In this document: piece by piece, positions 8,999 through 22,669 of the stretch
Position numbering within the stretch: position 1 is the stretch's first letter
Layout: each line of letters opens with the position of its first letter
DNA from: Verrucomicrobiota bacterium
Lineage (GTDB): Bacteria > Verrucomicrobiota > Verrucomicrobiia > Limisphaerales > UBA11358
Direction: 5' to 3'
DNA: 38,321 nt
NCBI GenBank assembly: GCA_021324235.1
Contig: JAJPJM010000144.1
Span: forward strand, 1 to 38,321
Program-made: the position numbers and the translations under genes
The notes under the pieces: generated by a model
What the model saw: only the letters and a program-made list of their open reading frames with translations
Told to the model about the DNA's origin: nothing
Databases searched by the model: none

Positions 8999-10450
8999 TT
9001 ATCGGTTGCTTGTTTCAAGTGATGTCGTGGCTAATCCGGAATCCTTTTCCCAGCCGCCGCCGAGCGCCTTGTAAAGCTGCACGAGATTGAGCGAGACCGC
9101 CTGATCGCTTTGCACCAACGCGTCCTGCGCCGCGTACAATGAGCGTTCGGAATCCAGCACGTGCAGGAAATCCGCCAGGCCACTTTTGTAAAGCTGGGTG
9201 GACAGGTCCAACGCCTGCTGGTTCGCCTGCACGGATTGCGTCAGCGATTCGCGCCGGACTTGTTCCCGGGCATAAGCGGTGAGTGCGTTCTCGGTATCCT
9301 CCAGCGCAGTCAGCACGGTCTGCTGGTACTCATCCAAAGCCTGTTCCTGGCGCGCGTTCTGGACCCGGACATTGGCCCGGATGCGGCCGGCCTCAAACAG
9401 TTCCCATTGCACGGTCGGCCCGGCGGACCAATACCGGCTCGCATAATCAAACCAGTTGTTCGCGGATATGCTTTGCAGGCCGGCAATGCCCGTCAGCGAA
9501 AATTTCGGGAACAAATCCGCTTTGGCCACGCCGATGCGCGCCGTGGCGGCGGCCAGTTCGCGTTCCGCACGCTGCACGTCGGGCCGGCGTTGCAGCAAAT
9601 CCGACGGCAATCCCACCGGCACGGCCGGCGGCGTCAGCGGAATGGGTTGTTCCACGGACAGGGCGTCCAGCAACGCGCCCGGCGGCCGGCCGAGCAGCAC
9701 GGCCAGGTGCCGGACGGATTCATCGAAACCGGTTTCCAGCGAAGGCACCTGCGCCTCGGTGGCGGTCAGCAGGGCCGTGGCCTGTTGCACGTCGAGGTCG
9801 CTGCTGAGTCCGTTTTGATAGCGGTTGCTGGTCAGGTCGAGAATTTCCTGCTGCACCCGGATATTGTCGCGCGTGATGGCGAGGCGCTGCTGGTAACTGC
9901 GCGCCCCGATGTAATTCCGCGCAACCTCCGCCAATAACGAGACCAGCACGTCGCGCTGACCGTATTCCGCGGCGCCCATTTCCGCATTGGCGGCCTCCAC
10001 GGCGCGGCGGGCGCCGCCGAAAATATCGATCTCCCAGGCGGCATCGAAACCGGTGTTGTAAAGATTGTAATCCAGCGCCGTGCCGGGTGGCAGCGGCGGG
10101 AAGGCGTTTTGTCCAAAACGGTTCCGGGAGTAGGCGGCCGAACTGCCAATCGAAGGCCATAAACCACCGGCGGCCACGTCCCGTTCAGCCCGGGCTTCGC
10201 GCACCCGGGCCTCGGCGATGCGAAGCGTGAAATTGGACTGGACCGCCATGGTCATGAACGAATCCAGGTTGGTGTCGTTAAAATTCCGCCACCACGCGGC
10301 GAGATCGGCCGGGCCGTTCGTTTCGCCGCCGGCCAAGGGCGAGGTCCATGACGTCGGCGTGTTTGCCTGAGGCGGATGGTAATTGGGCCCCACAGCGCAA
10401 CCCGCTAGGAGCGCCAGACACAGTACCGCCATGACCGTGAGCCATCTCAT
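8999..10450 (-). CDS. Outer-membrane efflux lipoprotein, NodT/OprM family, 483 aa
   Basis: Lipobox LLAGCAVGPNYHPPQ; PLTPPAVPVGLPSDLLQRRPDVQRAERELAAATARIGVAKADLFPKFSLTG. Confidence 0.95.
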   Translation of the reverse strand: MRWLTVMAVLCLALLAGCAVGPNYHPPQANTPTSWTSPLAGGETNGPADLAAWWRNFNDTNLDSFMTMAVQSNFTLRIAEARVREARAERDVAAGGLWPSIGSSAAYSRNRFGQNAFPPLPPGTALDYNLYNTGFDAAWEIDIFGGARRAVEAANAEMGAAEYGQRDVLVSLLAEVARNYIGARSYQQRLAITRDNIRVQQEILDLTSNRYQNGLSSDLDVQQATALLTATEAQVPSLETGFDESVRHLAVLLGRPPGALLDALSVEQPIPLTPPAVPVGLPSDLLQRRPDVQRAERELAAATARIGVAKADLFPKFSLTGIAGLQSISANNWFDYASRYWSAGPTVQWELFEAGRIRANVRVQNARQEQALDEYQQTVLTALEDTENALTAYAREQVRRESLTQSVQANQQALDLSTQLYKSGLADFLHVLDSERSLYAAQDALVQSDQAVSLNLVQLYKALGGGWEKDSGLATTSLETSNR

Positions 10451-11088
10451 TTTTTTTTGGCTGCCTCCCCGTTGCGATTGGCGGCGTCCAGCAGGTGCAG
10501 GATGGCTTCGACGGTGTCATCGACGCCGACGCCGGTGTTGAGCATGGCCTGGAATAGCTGGCGATTGGGCCATTCGTGGCCGAAGTAATGTTTCACGAAC
10601 TTCCGGCGGTCCTCGTCCATGGTATCCACCAGTTTGGCGGCCTCCGCCTCGTTGCCCACGCGCTTGAGCACCCGTCGGAATTTGAGTTCGCGCGAAGCGT
10701 ACAGAAAAACCGAAAAGGTGTCGGTGCGGTCGCGAAGAAAATACGGCGCGCCGCGGCCTACAATGATGCAGGGTTTCTTTTCGGCGGCCTGTTCGATGAC
10801 TTTTTGGACGATGGAAACCAGGCGGTCAGTGTCCAGGATGGCCAGGTCCGGCGACGGCAGGTTCCGGTCAAAACTTCCGCGCCAGATAAGGTTGATCAAC
10901 CGTTGCAGCAAGGGGTCCTTGCGTTCCTCGCGCCGCCGGCAGTCTTCCACCGGGATCTTTGCGAGCCGGGCGATTTCCTGGGTCAACGCGTCATCGAACA
11001 GTTTCCAGTCCAGGCGGGCGGCAAGTTTCTCGCTGATGTGGCTGCAACCAGCGCCAAATTCACGGTCGATGAGAAGGATTTGTTTCAT
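10447..11088 (-). CDS. Cytidylate kinase-like family protein (Cytidylate_kin2 type), 213 aa
   Basis: CIIVGRGAPYFLRDRTDTFSVFLYASRELKFRRV and KHYFGHEWPNRQLFQAMLNTG resemble Cytidylate_kin2-type proteins. Confidence 0.8.
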   Translation of the reverse strand: MKQILLIDREFGAGCSHISEKLAARLDWKLFDDALTQEIARLAKIPVEDCRRREERKDPLLQRLINLIWRGSFDRNLPSPDLAILDTDRLVSIVQKVIEQAAEKKPCIIVGRGAPYFLRDRTDTFSVFLYASRELKFRRVLKRVGNEAEAAKLVDTMDEDRRKFVKHYFGHEWPNRQLFQAMLNTGVGVDDTVEAILHLLDAANRNGEAAKKK

Positions 11089-14073: not shown

Positions 14074-15201
14074 TCAACCCGCACAACCGCAGACACGCTG
14101 GTAAAGCGCTTCATAGCGAGGCACGATGGCCTCCGCGGAAAAGTGCCCGCGGGCACGGCGCTGCGCCGCCTCACCCATCGCCATCCGGCGACCGGGTTCC
14201 CGAATCAAACCTTCAACGGCCTGTGCCAGGGCGTCCGGATCGGCGGACGCCACCAGCAACCCGCTCACGCCGTCTGCCACCACTTCCGGAATTCCGCCTG
14301 CCCGCCGGGCCACGCTCGGACAGCCAAAACTCATGGCCTCCAGGATGCTCAAACAAAAGCTCTCCGTCTCGGAGGTAAACAGTCCCAAATCCGCCGCCTG
14401 CAGGTAGTCTTCGATTTCATTTACGTTCTCACGCACGATGACGCGGTCTTTGAGTCCCAGCCGCTGCACGTCTTTGAGGTATGGCTCAAAGCTTCCCCCC
14501 GCCATAACCACGAGTTTGAAAGTTTCGCGCGGGCGGACGCGGGCCACGGTTTCGAGCAGGAGCTCAATGCGTTTTACCGGCCGGAGATTGGAGGAATGGA
14601 GAATCATTGCCTCATTGTCCGCGACGCCCAGCTCGCGGCGCACTTCCGCGCGCGAACGGCGCGGCGGACGGGGCGCAAAGAAATTGTAAATCACCTCCAG
14701 CGGTCCATTGAAGCCGAGCACACGCTGGGTTTCCTGTTTCAGAAATTCAGACACGACGGTAACCGCGTCCGAACAGGTGAGCGCGTGATGGATGGCCGGG
14801 CCGTAACCCGGATCGCTGCCCAGCAACGTGGTGTCGGTGCCATGCAAGGTGGTGACGACGCGCGGTTGTTGGGCCGGTGGCAGCATCGAACGCGCGAGAA
14901 TCGCCGCCGTCGCGTGCGGCACCGCGTAATGAACGTGCAATACGTCCAGATGATGGTCACGGCTGACCGCGGCCATTCTCACCGAGAGCGGCAGGGTGTA
15001 GTCGGGATACTTGAACAGTTGATATTCATTGATGACGACCGGATGAAAATGAAGTCGCGGTGCATGCTCCGGCAGGCGAAACGGACGTTCGTAGCTGAAG
15101 AAATGGACTTCGTGTCCGCGCCGCGCCAGTTCCTCGCCCAGGGCGGTGGCGAGGATGCCGCTGCCGCCAACGCTGGGATAACAGGCGATGCCGATTTTCA
15201 T
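14074..15201 (-). CDS. bshA: N-acetyl-alpha-D-glucosaminyl L-malate synthase BshA, 375 aa
   Basis: GT4 glycosyltransferase with BshA-like N-terminus MKIGIACYPSVGGSGILATALGEELARRGHEVHFFSYERPFRL and HVHYAVPHATAAILARSM. Confidence 0.9.
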   Translation of the reverse strand: MKIGIACYPSVGGSGILATALGEELARRGHEVHFFSYERPFRLPEHAPRLHFHPVVINEYQLFKYPDYTLPLSVRMAAVSRDHHLDVLHVHYAVPHATAAILARSMLPPAQQPRVVTTLHGTDTTLLGSDPGYGPAIHHALTCSDAVTVVSEFLKQETQRVLGFNGPLEVIYNFFAPRPPRRSRAEVRRELGVADNEAMILHSSNLRPVKRIELLLETVARVRPRETFKLVVMAGGSFEPYLKDVQRLGLKDRVIVRENVNEIEDYLQAADLGLFTSETESFCLSILEAMSFGCPSVARRAGGIPEVVADGVSGLLVASADPDALAQAVEGLIREPGRRMAMGEAAQRRARGHFSAEAIVPRYEALYQRVCGCAG

Positions 15202-15305: not shown

Positions 15306-16043
15306 CTAAAACCGCCTGGCGCTGCGGCCGACTTGTGCGAGCGAGTCCAACACGAGCGGGTCGTTGGGGAACAGCGCGATGGCATGACCGACGCCGGCGC
15401 GCAGTCCGCGCAGCCGCGCCTGGGCAAGCTGCAATTCCACGTAGTTGCGTGCGGCGGCCTGCGTCGCATGCGCCTCCATCGCCGCCGTCCAGGCGGCGAG
15501 GGTTTCCGGCGCCGAAACATCCATCAGCACCGGCGTGAGATTGGTCGGTTCGGCTTCCGGCGTGACCGCGTAGTAAAACAGTTGTTCAATCGCGTGAGCC
15601 GGGGCGCGGCGCAGTTCCTTGACGCCGCCGAAACGGGCGAGCCGGCAGGCGTCGCGGACCAGTTGCCCCAGCCGGGAATGGTCGGGATGCTGGTTTTCGA
15701 CCAGGCTCGGCGCGAGCACAACGCCCGGTCGCACACGGCGGATGACACCCGCCAGTTTGATGGCATGAGCCGCACGAACTTCAAAATGTGCGTCGCCGTC
15801 GAGTTCAATGAATTCAACCGTCGCGCCCAGCGCCGCGGCGGATTTTTTTGCCTCCGCCACGCGCTGCGCCGGCGTGCCGTGTGACGCCGATTCTCCGCGC
15901 GAGCAAACGACAAAGCCGGCCGCGCGACCAGCACGGGTTTCTTTCGCGATGACGCCGCCGCAGCCAAATTCGATGTCGTCGGGATGCGCGCCGAAGGCCA
16001 GCAACGACGGGAGTTCAGGTCGGAATTTCGGTGCAGGCTTCAT
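15306..16043 (-). CDS. bshB1: PIG-L/LmbE-family deacetylase, BshB1-like
   Basis: LLAFGAHPDDIEFGCGGVIAKETRAGRAAGFVVCSRGESASHGTPAQRVAEAKKSAAALGA..VLAPSLVENQHPDHSRLGQLVRDACRLARFGG. Start placed at MKPAPKF; the longer tracked ORF runs into the upstream gene. Confidence 0.88.
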   Translation of the reverse strand: MKPAPKFRPELPSLLAFGAHPDDIEFGCGGVIAKETRAGRAAGFVVCSRGESASHGTPAQRVAEAKKSAAALGATVEFIELDGDAHFEVRAAHAIKLAGVIRRVRPGVVLAPSLVENQHPDHSRLGQLVRDACRLARFGGVKELRRAPAHAIEQLFYYAVTPEAEPTNLTPVLMDVSAPETLAAWTAAMEAHATQAAARNYVELQLAQARLRGLRAGVGHAIALFPNDPLVLDSLAQVGRSARRF

Positions 16044-16791
16044 CGGCACGCTCAATGGCATCGCGGTTGACAAACGTGATCTCCGGTGTTTCTTCCCGGC
16101 GAAGATAGGCCATCTCCCCGGCCCCGGCAATGTAATGCGTGCAATGCACGACCGATTGCATCCAGCGCAACCGGGTATCGCGCGTCGGGCTGATTTGCTC
16201 CCTAGCAAAGGCGGTCGGAGGCAACGTGACAAAGGAATCGCCGCCTTCGTGGAGTTGAAACGCATCTTTCGAGAAACGGGCGCGGACGGTTTCACCTTCA
16301 AACGGAACATCCACAAAGAATTCCGGCACGTCGCAGGCTGCGCGGCGAATGGCGGGATCGCTGGAACGCACCACCCGGATACCTTCGAGCAGACCCATGC
16401 CGCGATACATTTCCAGGCAAAAATCGGCGGTGTTGAGGGCGGAAATTTTTTTGAAAACGGTGATCAGGGGATGCCCGACGTAATTTGGCAACTGCAGCGC
16501 GGTTTTGTCCTGCCAGCCGGCGGCAATCTGTTTGAGGTATTGCGGCGAAAATTTCCGTTGAATCCGGTTTTTGAAGGTGAAATTGAGCCGGGCCGGTTCA
16601 TGGGTTTTGCGATGGCGCAGGATGGTCTGCGTCTCGCGCGGGTCATGGTCACTGTCGTGGCAGAAGTAAATAATTTCGCCACCGGTTTCGGACTGGAGCC
16701 GGCGGGCCGTCCGGATTTTGGCAAACAGGAAGCGCCGCGGGAAAAAACCGCACGGTTGCTGGCCGAAACAGATGACCGGAGCGGAACTCAT
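16015..16791 (-). CDS. Compact BshC-like protein (putative bacillithiol cysteine-adding enzyme, about half the usual length), 258 aa
   Basis: FGQQPCGFFPRRFLFAKIRTA / IIYFCHDSDHDPRET / VVRSSDPAIRRA / YIAGAGEMAYLRR match in order the BshC landmarks GGQQ..GP..T..K, GEDHDxDE, NSxDPxIKK and AYIAGPGEINYW as recalled; adjacent to bshB and bshA. Confidence 0.6.
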   Translation of the reverse strand: MSSAPVICFGQQPCGFFPRRFLFAKIRTARRLQSETGGEIIYFCHDSDHDPRETQTILRHRKTHEPARLNFTFKNRIQRKFSPQYLKQIAAGWQDKTALQLPNYVGHPLITVFKKISALNTADFCLEMYRGMGLLEGIRVVRSSDPAIRRAACDVPEFFVDVPFEGETVRARFSKDAFQLHEGGDSFVTLPPTAFAREQISPTRDTRLRWMQSVVHCTHYIAGAGEMAYLRREETPEITFVNRDAIERADEACTEIPT

Positions 16792-18515
16792 GACGCAGGC
16801 GATGCCGGCGCGGGTTTGTCGGTGGCGCCGAGGGCGGCCTGAATCATCAGGCTCAACAACACGCAGGCGGCGCAGCCGATGAAATTATACCAGAGGTAGG
16901 AAAAATCGAGTTTCGGAACCCGGTAATGCAGGAAGTACAGGGCGAGGACCAGTACCTGGGACGACAACGCGCCCCAGAACATGGCGGTGCCGCCGATGCG
17001 TTTGATGAAAAAGGCCACGAGGAACAGGGCGAGCACGATGGGGTAGAAAACCGAGCCAACGATGTTGACCGCCTGGATCAAATTCTCCACCAGGTTCGCA
17101 AACAACGCGAAGGCAAGCGCCACCAGGCCCCAGAACAACGTGAACCATTTGGTGGCCGCGACGTAATGCGCGTCGCTGGCTTCGCGTTTGAGCAGGTGCC
17201 GGTAGAAATCCACCGTGGTGACCGAGCCGAGCGCGTTGAGTTCGGCGGCCTTCGATTGGAGCGCGGCGGCGAAAAACGCCGCCATCAGCAGTCCAATCAA
17301 ACCGTGCGGCAAATGGCCGAGGATGAACGTGACAAAGACGTAATCGGCGTCGTTGCTTTGCACGCCCGGATCGTCCTTTTGCATCACGCTCCTGGCCTCG
17401 GCCTGCACGGTGTCGCTGTGATCCAACGCCGCCAGGGCCTGCGTCCGCGCCACGGCCTCAGCCTTGCCGTCCCCGGCATGTTTGGCCTCGAGCCATTGGT
17501 GAATCAATTGCTCCTTTTGCGCGTAAGCCGCGGCGAATTCCTGTTGCAGCGCCTGGAGTTTGTCGCCGGGGTCATGCCTGACGGCTTCGTGCCAGGCGGA
17601 TTGATTGAAAAAAATCGGCGGCTGCTCAAATTGGTAGAAGACAAACACCATCACGCCGAGCAGCAGGATGAAAAATTGCATGGGAATCTTCAGCACGGCA
17701 TTGAACATCAGCCCCAGCCGGCTTTCGCGCAGGGAGGACCCTGAAAGGTAACGCTGCACCTGCGACTGGTCGGTGCCGAAGTAGGACAGCGACAGAAAAA
17801 ATCCGCCGAGCATCCCGGTCCAGAACGTATAACGCCGGTGGAGATCGACTGAGAAGCTCACCGCGTCCAGCTTTTGGAAGCCGCCCGCCACGGTGAAGGC
17901 GTCGCCAAGGCTGGTTGGCAGTTTCAGCAACAGGATGACAAACGCCGCCACCATGCCGCCGAAGATGACGGCCATTTGCCACTTTTGGGTAAGCGTCACC
18001 GCCCGGCTGCCGCCGGCGACGGTATAAATGATCACCAGTAGTCCGCTCAGGATGATGGTCAGGTCCAACCGCCAGCCCAGCACGGTAGACAGGATGATGG
18101 CCGGTGCATAAATCGTGATGCCCGCCGCCAGCCCACGCGACACAAGAAACAAGGCAGCGCCCAGCAAACGGGTCCTGGCATCGAAACGATGACCCAGATA
18201 TTCATAGGCCGTATAAACATTCAAGCGCCGGTATATCGGCAGGAAGACCGCGGCAATGAGAATCAGCGCCAGCGGCATGCCGAAATAATTCTGCACGAAA
18301 TCCAGCCCGCTCTCGTATCCCTGGCCCGGCGTGGAGATGAACGTGATGGCGCTCGCCTGGGTGGCGGCGACCGAAATACCGATGGTCAGCCAGCCGACGG
18401 TTTCGTCGCCCCGCAGATAGTGGTTCAGGCTCCGATGCCGGCGCGTATGCCAGGCGCCGTAGGCGGCGATGGCCACCATGCTGCCAATCAGGACGACGAA
18501 ATCGAGAAGGTTCAT
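16788..18515 (-). CDS. Sodium:solute symporter (SSS family)
   Basis: VGWLTIGISVAATQASAITFISTPGQGYESGLDFVQNYFGMPLALIL, LSYFGTDQSQVQRYLSGSSLRESRLGL. Start placed at MNLLDFVVL, overlapping the upstream stop as ATGA. Confidence 0.93.
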   Translation of the reverse strand: MNLLDFVVLIGSMVAIAAYGAWHTRRHRSLNHYLRGDETVGWLTIGISVAATQASAITFISTPGQGYESGLDFVQNYFGMPLALILIAAVFLPIYRRLNVYTAYEYLGHRFDARTRLLGAALFLVSRGLAAGITIYAPAIILSTVLGWRLDLTIILSGLLVIIYTVAGGSRAVTLTQKWQMAVIFGGMVAAFVILLLKLPTSLGDAFTVAGGFQKLDAVSFSVDLHRRYTFWTGMLGGFFLSLSYFGTDQSQVQRYLSGSSLRESRLGLMFNAVLKIPMQFFILLLGVMVFVFYQFEQPPIFFNQSAWHEAVRHDPGDKLQALQQEFAAAYAQKEQLIHQWLEAKHAGDGKAEAVARTQALAALDHSDTVQAEARSVMQKDDPGVQSNDADYVFVTFILGHLPHGLIGLLMAAFFAAALQSKAAELNALGSVTTVDFYRHLLKREASDAHYVAATKWFTLFWGLVALAFALFANLVENLIQAVNIVGSVFYPIVLALFLVAFFIKRIGGTAMFWGALSSQVLVLALYFLHYRVPKLDFSYLWYNFIGCAACVLLSLMIQAALGATDKPAPASPAS

Positions 18516-18682
18516 GAATAGCTCATCGTCAGCGCGAGCAACAACAGCACCCACAAAACGAAACAGCCGAAGACAAAAAGGTAAACGCCGCGCCAGGTGC
18601 GCAGCCACGGCAGGCTGGTCAATTCGTCCCTGTTTTCCGGAGGCGTATTAACGGATACGGGGCTGGCCTCCGGAGATCTCAT
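18512..18682 (-). CDS. Small single-TM protein, 56 aa, between PIG-L and symporter genes
   Basis: MRSPEASPVSVNTPPENRDELTSLPWLRTWRGVYLFVFGCFVLWVLLLLALTMSYS; start and stop each share an ATGA overlap with the neighbouring genes. Confidence 0.75.
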   Translation of the reverse strand: MRSPEASPVSVNTPPENRDELTSLPWLRTWRGVYLFVFGCFVLWVLLLLALTMSYS

Positions 18683-21213
18683 TTTCCGAGCGAAACCAGA
18701 TTGGCAAACAACCGGTAAGCGCCAGGGACGCCGGCCGGCAGTTGCCGGAAAAACACCAGGCCGGTATAAACAAAATGGCCCTTGCCATAGGAGGCGACGA
18801 GCAGTCCCCCTTTGAGCGGCGCTTCGCCGGGATCGTTGCACGCGAGAATCGGCGTGAAATGGTCATCCCATTGGTCGGGATAATAAATCCCGCGCTCCTG
18901 AATCCAACCGTCAAAATCGGCGCTGGTGATTTTGTTCGGCGTGTTGAGCACCGGATGGTCGGGCGCGAGGAACGTCACCGGCGCGGTTTCATCCGTCACG
19001 CGGTCGTTGGAAAGTTGCAGGTGATAGGGCGTGAGCTGGTCGGTCTTCAAATCGCGTCCCGGCCGGTTGTATTGTTCGATGACATTGCCGCCAGCTTCAA
19101 CATAAGCGAACAAGGCCGGCAAATGGGAGACGAGATCGGTGCGAACATTAAATGCGCGGACGCCAATGACCACGGCATCGAATGCCTTCAGACGATTTGC
19201 AGTCAGGTCATCGCCGGTCAGGGTGGTAACCTGGTAACCCATGTCTGCAAGGCATTGGGCCACATCATCGCCGGCACCCGGGAGATAACCGACCTTATGG
19301 CCGCGGATGGCGAGGTTGAGGCAGACGGCCTTGAGCCGGGCGGGCGGCTGCAACAACAGCAGCGGAATGTGCGGGTAGTCGATCACGATGCGCTCGTTGT
19401 CGTAACTCTTGCCGCCGACTTCAGCCTCGGCGGTGAGGTTGGCGACCATTGGTTCCGGCGGCGCGGTCACCTTGAACGTAAACCGGGCCTTGTCTCCGGC
19501 GGCTTTCAAATGGAACGCTTGCGTCGCGGGAACGGCCTTCCAACCCGCCGGCGCGTCCAGTCGCAAAGTGCCGGCCGTGTCGGGCCGCGCCGCCGTCACC
19601 TCCACCGTCACCGGTCGCCTGGCCTTGGGCGCGAACAAGCTGACATCGGATGCCAGCTTGAGTGACACCGGCGAAATCACATCCAAGTTTCGGGTCGCAC
19701 CTTCCACCCGGTTGGCCGTGACCTGCACCGGCTCGTCAGGAACAATTAAAGTCTGGCCGCCCACGTCAAAAATCTGTTCCAGCGCAAAGACCGGAGGATT
19801 TTCCGGACGCCCGATGAGTTTCGGATCATCCACGCGGAACATGCCGGCGGTATGGTCTTCGCGCAACCAATATGGCTGGCTCAACGGCGTATCGGCCGGA
19901 AGTGTTTCCATCGCATCGCGGCTGACCGCTTGATGGGTTGAAAGGTCCGTGCCCACGGCGAATTCGGTCCCGATGGCCGGACACCGCGCCGCCACCCAGC
20001 GAACGGGAACCACGTCCGAACGGATTGCGGCCGTCAGATGCAGATCCAACGTCTCGCCGGGCACAACTTCGGCCTGTGGAACCGTCGTCGCCACGGTCAG
20101 ACCAAGACATTCCTGAATGAGCTGGTCCAATTGCCGGCGCTTTTCATTCACCACCGGGTCGTCCGGGGCCAAACCGGCCAGATTTTTTTTGATTGTCAAC
20201 AACGCGGGCACGCTGGCCGCCGGGTTTTGGGGATCAAATTTTGTGATGACGTCATCAGCCATCTTGCCGATTTCCGCGCCGCCGGGCACGCGCGACCAGG
20301 TCGTGTCCACGCCATCCATGATGTCATGGGTCGCCGGTTCGCCGTCGAGGAGTTCGAATGATTCCGACCTCGGCCCGTTGCCGCCGCCGAAGCCGGCAAA
20401 ATTTCCAAAGCCCTGGGTCTTGTGCATCGAGCGGCTGTGCGCGGCAATTTCGGCGAAGGACTCACCGGATACGGAATCCTTGCCGCCGACATCCATCCGG
20501 ATCAGGTTGGTGGCGTTCCCGCTGCTCTGAAAGCCGCCCACATTCCAGAGCAAGCGTTTGGGTTGCCACGGCGTGAGGCCTTCCTGGAGCTGGTCGGGAA
20601 ACGCCTTCGGGTCACCGCACAGCTTGAACGCCTCGATGGCCAGTACCGTCGAGGCCGTGTGATGTCCATGCGTGCCGCCCGGCACCGATGAAAAGCGCGT
20701 GATGACCACGTCGGGCCGGAACTCGCGGATGACGCGCACCATGTCGGACAGCACTTCCGGTTTGTCCCAAATTCTCAGCGTCTCGCGATAATCCTTGGAA
20801 AAACCAAAATCGACTGCCCGCGAAAAAAACTGCCGTCCGCCATCCACGCGCCGGGCGGCGAGCAGTTCTTCCGTGCGGATGACGCCCAGCTCGTCGCCAA
20901 ATTGCGGACCCAGCACATTCTGACCGCCATCGCCGCGCGTAAGCGAAAGATAGGCGGTGCGGTAACGCCGGCCGCGTGCCAGATAGGCAATCAATTGGGT
21001 GTTCTCATCATCAGGATGTGCGGCGACGTAAAGCACGCTACCCATCCCGTCGAAGCCGTACAGGTCCTGCAGCATCGCTGACGAGGAGGTCGGCCCGGCG
21101 CCGGCCAACAGCGGCACGCTTAGCACCGCGATGCCGCAGGCCAATCCGAACACAAAACGCCACGCCGGGCGTGAGCGCCGGGCGGGCGCGGCCATGGACG
21201 CAATTGACGTCAT
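18679..21213 (-). CDS. Large secreted PIG-L family deacetylase, 844 aa
   Basis: Signal/TM N-terminus, then VLYVAAHPDDENTQLIAYLARGRRYRTAYLSLTRGDGGQNVLGPQFGDELGVIRTEELLAARRVDGG..HGHHTAS; C-terminal ThuA/GATase-like region. Confidence 0.92.
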   Translation of the reverse strand: MTSIASMAAPARRSRPAWRFVFGLACGIAVLSVPLLAGAGPTSSSAMLQDLYGFDGMGSVLYVAAHPDDENTQLIAYLARGRRYRTAYLSLTRGDGGQNVLGPQFGDELGVIRTEELLAARRVDGGRQFFSRAVDFGFSKDYRETLRIWDKPEVLSDMVRVIREFRPDVVITRFSSVPGGTHGHHTASTVLAIEAFKLCGDPKAFPDQLQEGLTPWQPKRLLWNVGGFQSSGNATNLIRMDVGGKDSVSGESFAEIAAHSRSMHKTQGFGNFAGFGGGNGPRSESFELLDGEPATHDIMDGVDTTWSRVPGGAEIGKMADDVITKFDPQNPAASVPALLTIKKNLAGLAPDDPVVNEKRRQLDQLIQECLGLTVATTVPQAEVVPGETLDLHLTAAIRSDVVPVRWVAARCPAIGTEFAVGTDLSTHQAVSRDAMETLPADTPLSQPYWLREDHTAGMFRVDDPKLIGRPENPPVFALEQIFDVGGQTLIVPDEPVQVTANRVEGATRNLDVISPVSLKLASDVSLFAPKARRPVTVEVTAARPDTAGTLRLDAPAGWKAVPATQAFHLKAAGDKARFTFKVTAPPEPMVANLTAEAEVGGKSYDNERIVIDYPHIPLLLLQPPARLKAVCLNLAIRGHKVGYLPGAGDDVAQCLADMGYQVTTLTGDDLTANRLKAFDAVVIGVRAFNVRTDLVSHLPALFAYVEAGGNVIEQYNRPGRDLKTDQLTPYHLQLSNDRVTDETAPVTFLAPDHPVLNTPNKITSADFDGWIQERGIYYPDQWDDHFTPILACNDPGEAPLKGGLLVASYGKGHFVYTGLVFFRQLPAGVPGAYRLFANLVSLGK

Positions 21214-22091
21214 TCCTGCAGGCTGGAGATGAGGTCCTGATTCATTTTGGGGAATGAACTGCCGGGGCCTTCGGCCTTCAGCGCCAATTCGGTGGATTGT
21301 TTGGCCGCCGCGATCGCGCCTGGCTTGTCTCCCTGCTTCGCCAGAATCTCGGCCTTCAGGTGGAACATTTCAAAGGCAATCCGGGGATTGTCCGCCAGTC
21401 CGGTGTTGACCCAGTCGAGGGCCTGCTTCAGGTCCAGGTTATGATCGTAATAGAACGTGGCGGCTTGAAAATAGAAGCTGTCCGATTTTTTGCCCGGCGC
21501 CGCCAGGGCCGACTTAATTTGCGGGACGAGCTTGTCGGCCACATTTACCTCCAGCCGGATCGGGACCACGGTCTGGTCCCAAACCAAATTGAGCACCGCC
21601 GACTCATCCCGGATGTGGTTGAATTCGATGGTGAAAGTCTCAATGCGGGTGTCCGCCAATGCCACCGGCGTCACCTTGAATCGCACGACATCATCCTTCT
21701 CGTGGTATTGAAAGGCGCCCCACTGGTTGGCGTTCTGATTGATGATGATCGTCCACCCGTTCTCGCCGGGGATGGTGAAAAGGGCATAAGTGCCGGCGGG
21801 GATTTCATGCCCCTCCAGTTTGACCGGCGTGCTGAAGGTGAGTTTGGTGGCCTGATTGGCGCCGGTGCGCCAGACCTGGCCGTAGGGAACGATGCCGCCG
21901 AAGATGGTGCGGTCTTTGACCCCCGGCCGTGAATAATCCACTTGAATATCCGTGAGGCCGACGCGCTGTTTCAGCGTGCAGGCGGGGCTGGCGGCAGGGA
22001 ATTCAACTCCCGGCGTCTGCGCCGACAAACCGGTCCCGAAGGCCAGCCCGCAAACGAAGGCCAGCGAACAAAGCAACGGTTTTGCGTTCAT
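21210..22091 (-). CDS. DUF2911-domain secreted protein with C-terminal helical/TPR-like region
   Basis: RVGLTDIQVDYSRPGVKDRTIFGGIVPYGQVWRTGANQATKLTFSTPVKLEGHEIPAGTYALFTIPGENGWTIIIN; start placed at MNAKPLLCSLAFVCGLAFG. Confidence 0.88.
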   Translation of the reverse strand: MNAKPLLCSLAFVCGLAFGTGLSAQTPGVEFPAASPACTLKQRVGLTDIQVDYSRPGVKDRTIFGGIVPYGQVWRTGANQATKLTFSTPVKLEGHEIPAGTYALFTIPGENGWTIIINQNANQWGAFQYHEKDDVVRFKVTPVALADTRIETFTIEFNHIRDESAVLNLVWDQTVVPIRLEVNVADKLVPQIKSALAAPGKKSDSFYFQAATFYYDHNLDLKQALDWVNTGLADNPRIAFEMFHLKAEILAKQGDKPGAIAAAKQSTELALKAEGPGSSFPKMNQDLISSLQE

Positions 22092-22117
22092 GGGTCCGAT
22101 GGTTGGATTTGGTCGAA

Positions 22118-22669
22118 TTACTTTGCAACGGTGAAAGGTACGGAAAACCCGGTGTTCTCCCACATCATCTTCAAGACGCCACCCCCGCCAGGGGACCGGG
22201 CGACCGCCATGGTGAATTGGTCCACCGGCTTGTCCAAGGTTTCTTTTTTCAAGTCGACGCGCGCCAGGTCGTGTGAGGTATCCACAGGGATTCCCCAGCC
22301 GCCGAGGCGTGTGCTGATGGCCAGTTGGGACGCGCCGTTTTCGTCCGGCAGCATGTAAAGGGTGTAAGCGCCGGCGGGAACCGTCTTGCCCCCCAGTTCA
22401 ATGGGCTTCTGGGTAATGAGGGTCGTCGCCTCGTCCGCCCCCATGCGCCAGGGTTCCCCATAGGGTACCAGTCCGCCCCAAATTTTGCGGACCTCGGATG
22501 TCCCGGGTTTGGTGGTGTAGGGCCGACCGTAAGTAAGGGTGACCCGGTTGCCGTCGATCACGCCGCTGATGGTTTCATGCGGGCTCATCCGGGCGCGTTG
22601 GGCCATCGCCGGCCAGGCACTCAGCATGGCCACGGCGACGATTGCGAGAAGGGATAGATGTTTGTTCAT
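22118..22669 (-). CDS. DUF2911-domain secreted protein, 183 aa (second copy)
   Basis: VTLTYGRPYTTKPGTSEVRKIWGGLVPYGEPWRMGADEATTLITQKPIELGGKTVPAGAYTLYMLPDENG; signal peptide. Confidence 0.88.
   Translation of the reverse strand: MNKHLSLLAIVAVAMLSAWPAMAQRARMSPHETISGVIDGNRVTLTYGRPYTTKPGTSEVRKIWGGLVPYGEPWRMGADEATTLITQKPIELGGKTVPAGAYTLYMLPDENGASQLAISTRLGGWGIPVDTSHDLARVDLKKETLDKPVDQFTMAVARSPGGGGVLKMMWENTGFSVPFTVAK

Follow-up and report, generated by a model that had tools for sequence, protein, structure and literature searches.

X258, a half-size BshC-like protein of Verrucomicrobiota bshB-bshA operons and a likely cysteine ligase

A gene for a 258-residue protein, here called X258, lies directly ahead of bshB-like and bshA genes in the DNA of a Verrucomicrobiota bacterium (the window, a contig stretch of 38,321 nucleotides). 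We consider it highly likely that X258 is a minimal single-domain analogue of BshC which joins cysteine to GlcN-malate and so makes bacillithiol, a glutathione-like antioxidant, or one of its close derivatives; the catalysis, the cysteine and the product are inferred. The observations behind this reading are the gene itself and its conservation, the similarity of its predicted fold to BshC, the collinearity of its motifs with those of BshC, its operon slot and its mutual exclusion with BshC. A 2018 survey counted Verrucomicrobia among the major lineages without a documented or predicted low-molecular-weight thiol and urged the study of genomes with partial pathways (PMC6282198). Verrucomicrobia with bshA and bshB but without a known BshC probably make a bacillithiol-like thiol, with X258 in the place of BshC.

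The gene, its family and its cassette

Six genes on the same strand make up the operon and its upstream neighbours:

14074..15201 (-): bshA, N-acetylglucosaminyl malate synthase (TIGR03999, E 1e-118, 396.6 bits against a cut-off of 273.7)
15306..16043 (-): bshB-like PIG-L deacetylase, 245 aa, ATG at 16043 (PF02585, E 3e-21)
16015..16791 (-): X258, 258-aa BshC-like putative minimal ligase, with a predicted class-I Rossmann core and GQQ, HDSDHD..E, SSDP..R, R..R..WMQ and GxGE motifs
16788..18608 (-): sodium:solute symporter family protein, cassette member (PF00474; start codon uncertain)
18679..21213 (-): large PIG-L family protein, 844 aa, hydrophobic N terminus, cassette member (PF02585, E 1e-15)
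21210..22163 (-): DUF2911 protein, the upstream end of the conserved cassette (PF11138, E 1e-56)

The first-pass annotation had proposed a BshC-like open reading frame at 16015-16791 (-) that would escape routine annotation, and this frame proved real. It begins with ATG, encodes 258 aa and remained without a Pfam or NCBIfam match at E<1. Searches of PDB sequences with phmmer and hmmsearch gave only chance matches. The symporter stop codon and the X258 start overlap as ATGA at 16791-16788. As had also been claimed, the 3′ end of X258 overlaps the bshB-like gene (by 29 nt), and bshA follows at 15201-14074.

For the bshB-like protein, the best NCBIfam match was BshB1 (TIGR04001, E 3.5e-38, 131.6 bits, under the 182.5 cut-off); its PIG-L domain is clear, and its nearest PDB chains are BshB1 (6p2t) and an LMBE-related protein (2ixd). 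The nearest PDB chains of the bshA product are solved BshA enzymes. The large PIG-L protein is weakly Mca/MshB-like, with 50 bits against TIGR03446 (Mca), under the cut-off. It is not confined to this pathway, with relatives on Aminobacter and Rhizobium plasmids. Downstream of bshA, past an MFS/HlyD efflux pair and outside the conserved cassette, a cytidylate-kinase-like protein (PF13189) is encoded at 10447-11088 (-).

Searches of GTDB r220 species genomes gave 294 loci with close relatives of X258. The 80 best of these are 63-86% identical to the window protein. Most hosts are Verrucomicrobiota (Limisphaerales/Pedosphaerales-type and Opitutaceae), together with an Obscuribacterales/Melainabacteria clade; record titles that name other phyla are the submitters' MAG labels and were not relied on. 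The gene is taken as real because this identity holds over 80 loci that span several classes and reach into a second phylum, and because its neighbourhood is fixed. All members have 250-290 aa, near-uniformly about 255, and end about 30 aa past GxGE. A reading of X258 as a pseudogene, a BshC cut short or in decay, was ruled out by this near-uniform length and by the 63-86% identity over 80 loci in two phyla. No plasmid or viral homologues of X258 were found when these were searched for. At six loci (L023, L024, L025, L033, L034 and L048) X258 carries an insertion of about 24-30 residues after position 174-177, in a beta-hairpin region.

The gene order DUF2911, large PIG-L, symporter, X258, bshB, bshA recurs, with every gene on one strand. 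Among loci whose flanks are long enough to judge, X258 is accompanied by the symporter in 74/75, the large PIG-L protein in 65/68, DUF2911 in 60/65, bshB in 71/74 and bshA in 65/66. The partners encoded at 16788-22163 (-) are kept with X258-bshB-bshA across Verrucomicrobiota and Obscuribacterales. At four loci (L051, L073, L075 and L093) bshA comes directly after X258 with no detectable bshB between them; in the stretches of L051, L073 and L093 no PIG-L frame other than the large one was seen.

In a midpoint-rooted tree, the Obscuribacterales/Melainabacteria X258 clade is nested within Verrucomicrobiota with support of 99/92. Cassette copies in this clade are L066, L068, L098, L047, L091, L092, L093 and L107. 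The nested branching suggests that the cassette moved between phyla; the direction was not determined.

Predicted fold and motifs in common with BshC

We modelled X258 by AlphaFold2 from 35 natural homologues without templates (pLDDT 89.0, pTM 0.87) and compared the model with all PDB chains by Foldseek. The sole match at E<1e-3 was B. subtilis BshC, 4WBD (E 5.5e-10, prob 1.00, TMq 0.60); the runner-up was a tyrosyl-tRNA synthetase at E 5.8e-3. When another member (54% identity to the window protein) was modelled from a different alignment, 4WBD was again the only match at E<1e-3 (E 6.2e-10, TMq 0.64). Thus the comparison with BshC structures, which the first-pass annotation had named as a check, was clearly passed by two separate models. 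Over the structural match the models showed an rmsd of 6.8-6.9 Å and about 14-17% sequence identity to 4WBD. With TM-scores of 0.60-0.64, this means that X258 and BshC share the core only, and the X258 folds are predicted ones. Lower matches were class-I aminoacyl-tRNA synthetases (TyrRS, LysRS-I and GluRS; E ~3e-3 to 1e-1), which is consistent with a class-I Rossmann core in the modelled protein.

On the sequence level the relation is fainter. A profile search with a single-sequence HMM, proposed earlier as a refuting test, did not find BshC similarity in X258. No NCBIfam match was obtained at E<1, so that the BshC equivalog TIGR03998 (cut-off 265.8 bits) was not met. The BshC Rossmann-like domain PF10079 was not found in the window protein and appeared in only 1/35 relatives, at E 0.1. 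The four BshC landmark motifs claimed at first reading are nevertheless all present in order, and are conserved well beyond chance.

Profile-profile alignment by hhalign runs through all four motifs, as the claimed collinearity requires. With X258 against six BshC sequences, FGQQ...HDSDHDPRE paired with GGQQ...GEDHDLDE. With 97 X258 against 8 BshC sequences, residues 5-230 of X258 paired unguided with 85-357 of BshC over all four motifs, including RSSDPAIRR with NSGDPGIKK and WMQ...YIAGAGEMAYL with LMQ...FIAGPGEINYW. The B. subtilis BshC sequence used is an exact match to 4WBD over 539 residues. The score of 32.8 beat all of 200 column shuffles (mean 16.4, SD 2.9, max 27.5), and a reversed control scored 13.4. 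The hhalign probability was low, at 16-27%, and the fold evidence carries more weight than the profile alignment.

Two further residues are invariant in both sets: a Lys 15 residues past the G of GQQ (K25 in X258, K105 in BshC) and a Glu 3 residues past DHD (E53 and E139). About 96 columns are conserved at 95% or more in 81 X258 sequences. Never varying in 97 sequences are Q11, Q12, R20, K25, H45, D46, D48, H49, R52, E53, N70, Q78, K87, C125, R149, R170, R172, R204, R207, Q212, C217, H219, E226 and R243. Invariant or nearly so in 81-97 members are GQQ, K25, HDSDHD, RET, F124-C125-L126, S143, R149, R204, R207, WMQ, C217-T-H219-Y and G223..E226..Y229. Of these, C125, C217 and H219 align with BshC positions that are neither Cys nor His, and judging from the sequences alone, substrate handling may differ. 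A zinc site formed by C14, C125, C217 and H219 was considered but is not claimed; strand polarity does not obviously unite these residues.

X258 lacks more than half of BshC. The predicted early end after the last motif, without a C-terminal coiled coil, was borne out: this motif ends at 230 of 258 in X258 and at 357 of 539 in BshC. The connecting region falls about 40 residues short of that in BshC, in line with the shortened insertions proposed. Beyond those proposals, the roughly 80 residues ahead of GQQ in BshC are also missing, and GQQ stands at residue 10 in X258 and at about 90 in B. subtilis BshC. X258 is thus without the first ~80 and the last ~165 residues of BshC, dimerisation domain included; the C-terminal part of BshC contains an alpha-helical coiled coil for dimerisation (PMC4360819).

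Co-occurrence with BshA and exclusion of classical BshC

We searched 241 genomes of the phylum and found BshA above cut-off in 16. X258 is present in 14 of these 16 and classical BshC in the other two; none of the 16 has both and none has neither. The chance that all 14 X258 genes land among the 16 BshA genomes is about 7e-21, a figure that ignores phylogeny and is indicative only. In 97 closer relatives, X258 occurs in 27, BshA in 26 of the same 27 and BshC in 0. One of the 26 (G020) was counted on a partial BshA match that runs to the contig end. In the single X258 genome where BshA was not found (G022), the operon is cut off by the end of a 34,922-base contig (L031). Taking the 337 genomes together, BshA comes with X258 or with classical BshC, never with both and never with neither. 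X258 is patchy within one genus, yet tracks BshA exactly.

The two genomes with classical BshC (G142 and G222) have the gene order bshC-bshB-bshA, compared with X258-bshB-bshA elsewhere, and X258 therefore occupies the bshC slot. TIGR03998 gave no match in any X258-bearing genome tested. A full-length BshC hidden elsewhere in the window's own genome, which is 91% complete, was also ruled out by the TIGR03998 search. Complementarity with BshC and operon position together support the role first suggested for X258, the missing cysteine-adding step; that X258 catalyses it, and which thiol results, remain inferences.

Proposed function and comparison with known systems

X258 very probably works like BshC, an activity that is inferred. 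In the proposed pathway, BshA would couple GlcNAc and L-malate, BshB would strip the acetyl group to give GlcN-malate with a free amine, and X258 would couple L-cysteine to that amine, giving bacillithiol or a close derivative. Substrate binding and activation would rest on the class-I aminoacyl-tRNA-synthetase-like Rossmann core common to X258 and BshC, with the GQQ loop, the following Lys, the DHD..E loop and the R..Q and GxGE motifs as its elements. In the X258 lineage the enzyme would do without two parts of classical BshC, its N-terminal extension and its coiled-coil dimerisation domain. Substrate activation is an inference, and so are the addition of cysteine and the formation of bacillithiol. 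For BshC itself, in vitro activity had never been shown and the mechanism of cysteine ligation was unknown as of a 2015 review (PMC4360819).

The YpdA/Bdr reductase (TIGR04018) and bacilliredoxin (PF06491) were each found in 0/97 relatives, though 26-27 of these carry bshA and X258. The Firmicutes-type disulfide-recycling system is absent or replaced in these organisms, which may therefore make a different thiol from Firmicutes or recycle it differently. This absence is also one point for a different reading, in which X258, a ligase with the BshC fold, attaches a non-cysteine amino acid or an acyl group to GlcN-malate, and the linked symporter perhaps carries the product out of or into the cell. 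The nearly constant company of the symporter and of another, large PIG-L protein would suit such a product, and the Cys and His positions peculiar to X258 could mean a different pocket. We regard it as unlikely, since the BshC-aligned motifs (GQQ, K, DHD..E, Q, GxGE) are kept almost without exception, and X258 and BshC share one operon slot and exclude each other.

Still less credit is due to the idea that X258 is a BshC-derived accessory or regulatory protein, with an unrecognised ligase elsewhere performing the step. X258 has not been shown to be active, and the parts of BshC that it has lost, coiled coil included, are large. Against this stand the invariance of its charged motif residues in 97/97 sequences, as expected of an enzyme, and its presence, tight in the operon, in every BshA-positive genome without BshC. 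Finally, the likeness to BshC could be convergent, X258 being another class-I-type Rossmann enzyme with no thiol role and linked to bshA and bshB by chance or transfer. The low identity to BshC over the structural match (~14-17%) and the aminoacyl-tRNA synthetases as next Foldseek matches (E ~3e-3 to 1e-2) leave room for this. We can give it almost no weight: the 4WBD E-value is at least 6 orders of magnitude better than that of any aminoacyl-tRNA synthetase, the motifs follow one another in the same order, and both linkage and phyletic pattern are almost free of exceptions.

With the BshC-like cysteine ligase retained as the preferred reading, a wider and speculative picture can be drawn, which we hold to be possible but do not favour. 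X258 may represent an ancient, separate lineage of half-size thiol ligases in Verrucomicrobiota and Obscuribacterales, perhaps monomeric and perhaps with a Cys/His site not present in BshC, which makes a bacillithiol-type or new low-molecular-weight thiol. One cassette would then combine it with a dedicated symporter and an extra PIG-L enzyme, which would take up, recycle or exchange this thiol or conjugates of it.

We found no description of X258 in the open-access literature; subscription journals were mostly outside the search, and novelty is not proven. One survey demanded similar query and subject length (PMC6282198) and another coverage >80% (PMC12719100), and X258 would therefore have been missed by both. 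From this family, hundreds of species are predicted to make a thiol. As a natural enzyme that does without both the N-terminal part and the coiled coil of BshC, X258 would show what catalysis requires and what it can spare, and it offers a small target for biochemistry.

Compared with class-I aminoacyl-tRNA synthetases, X258 has the Rossmann core in common, but the match is far weaker than that to BshC, no aminoacyl-tRNA-synthetase Pfam domain was detected, and X258 is too short for a typical tRNA-binding domain. MshC, the CysRS-like cysteine ligase of mycothiol synthesis, puts cysteine onto an aminosugar amine and has the same broad class-I fold. The same type of reaction is expected of X258. 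MshC/CysRS is not its nearest fold, MshC being absent among the 50 best Foldseek matches.

BshC/YllA (TIGR03998, PF10079; 4WBD) is the closest known system. As it does not satisfy the curated BshC models and has no coiled-coil domain, X258 should not be filed as a TIGR03998 BshC. BshC has about 540 aa as opposed to 258, and only BshC has the N-terminal ~80 aa, the coiled-coil dimerisation domain and the longer connecting region. Conversely, X258 is missed by both BshC models and has Cys and His residues that are invariant in its family and absent from BshC. By fold, motif and context, X258 should be placed in the BshC superfamily as a new half-size family: its predicted Rossmann core is of the BshC type (Foldseek E ~6e-10), GQQ, K(+15), DHD..E(+3), S-D-P..R-K, R..MQ and GxGE are collinear, and like BshC it sits ahead of bshB-bshA, co-occurs with both genes and is complementary to BshC in phyletic pattern.
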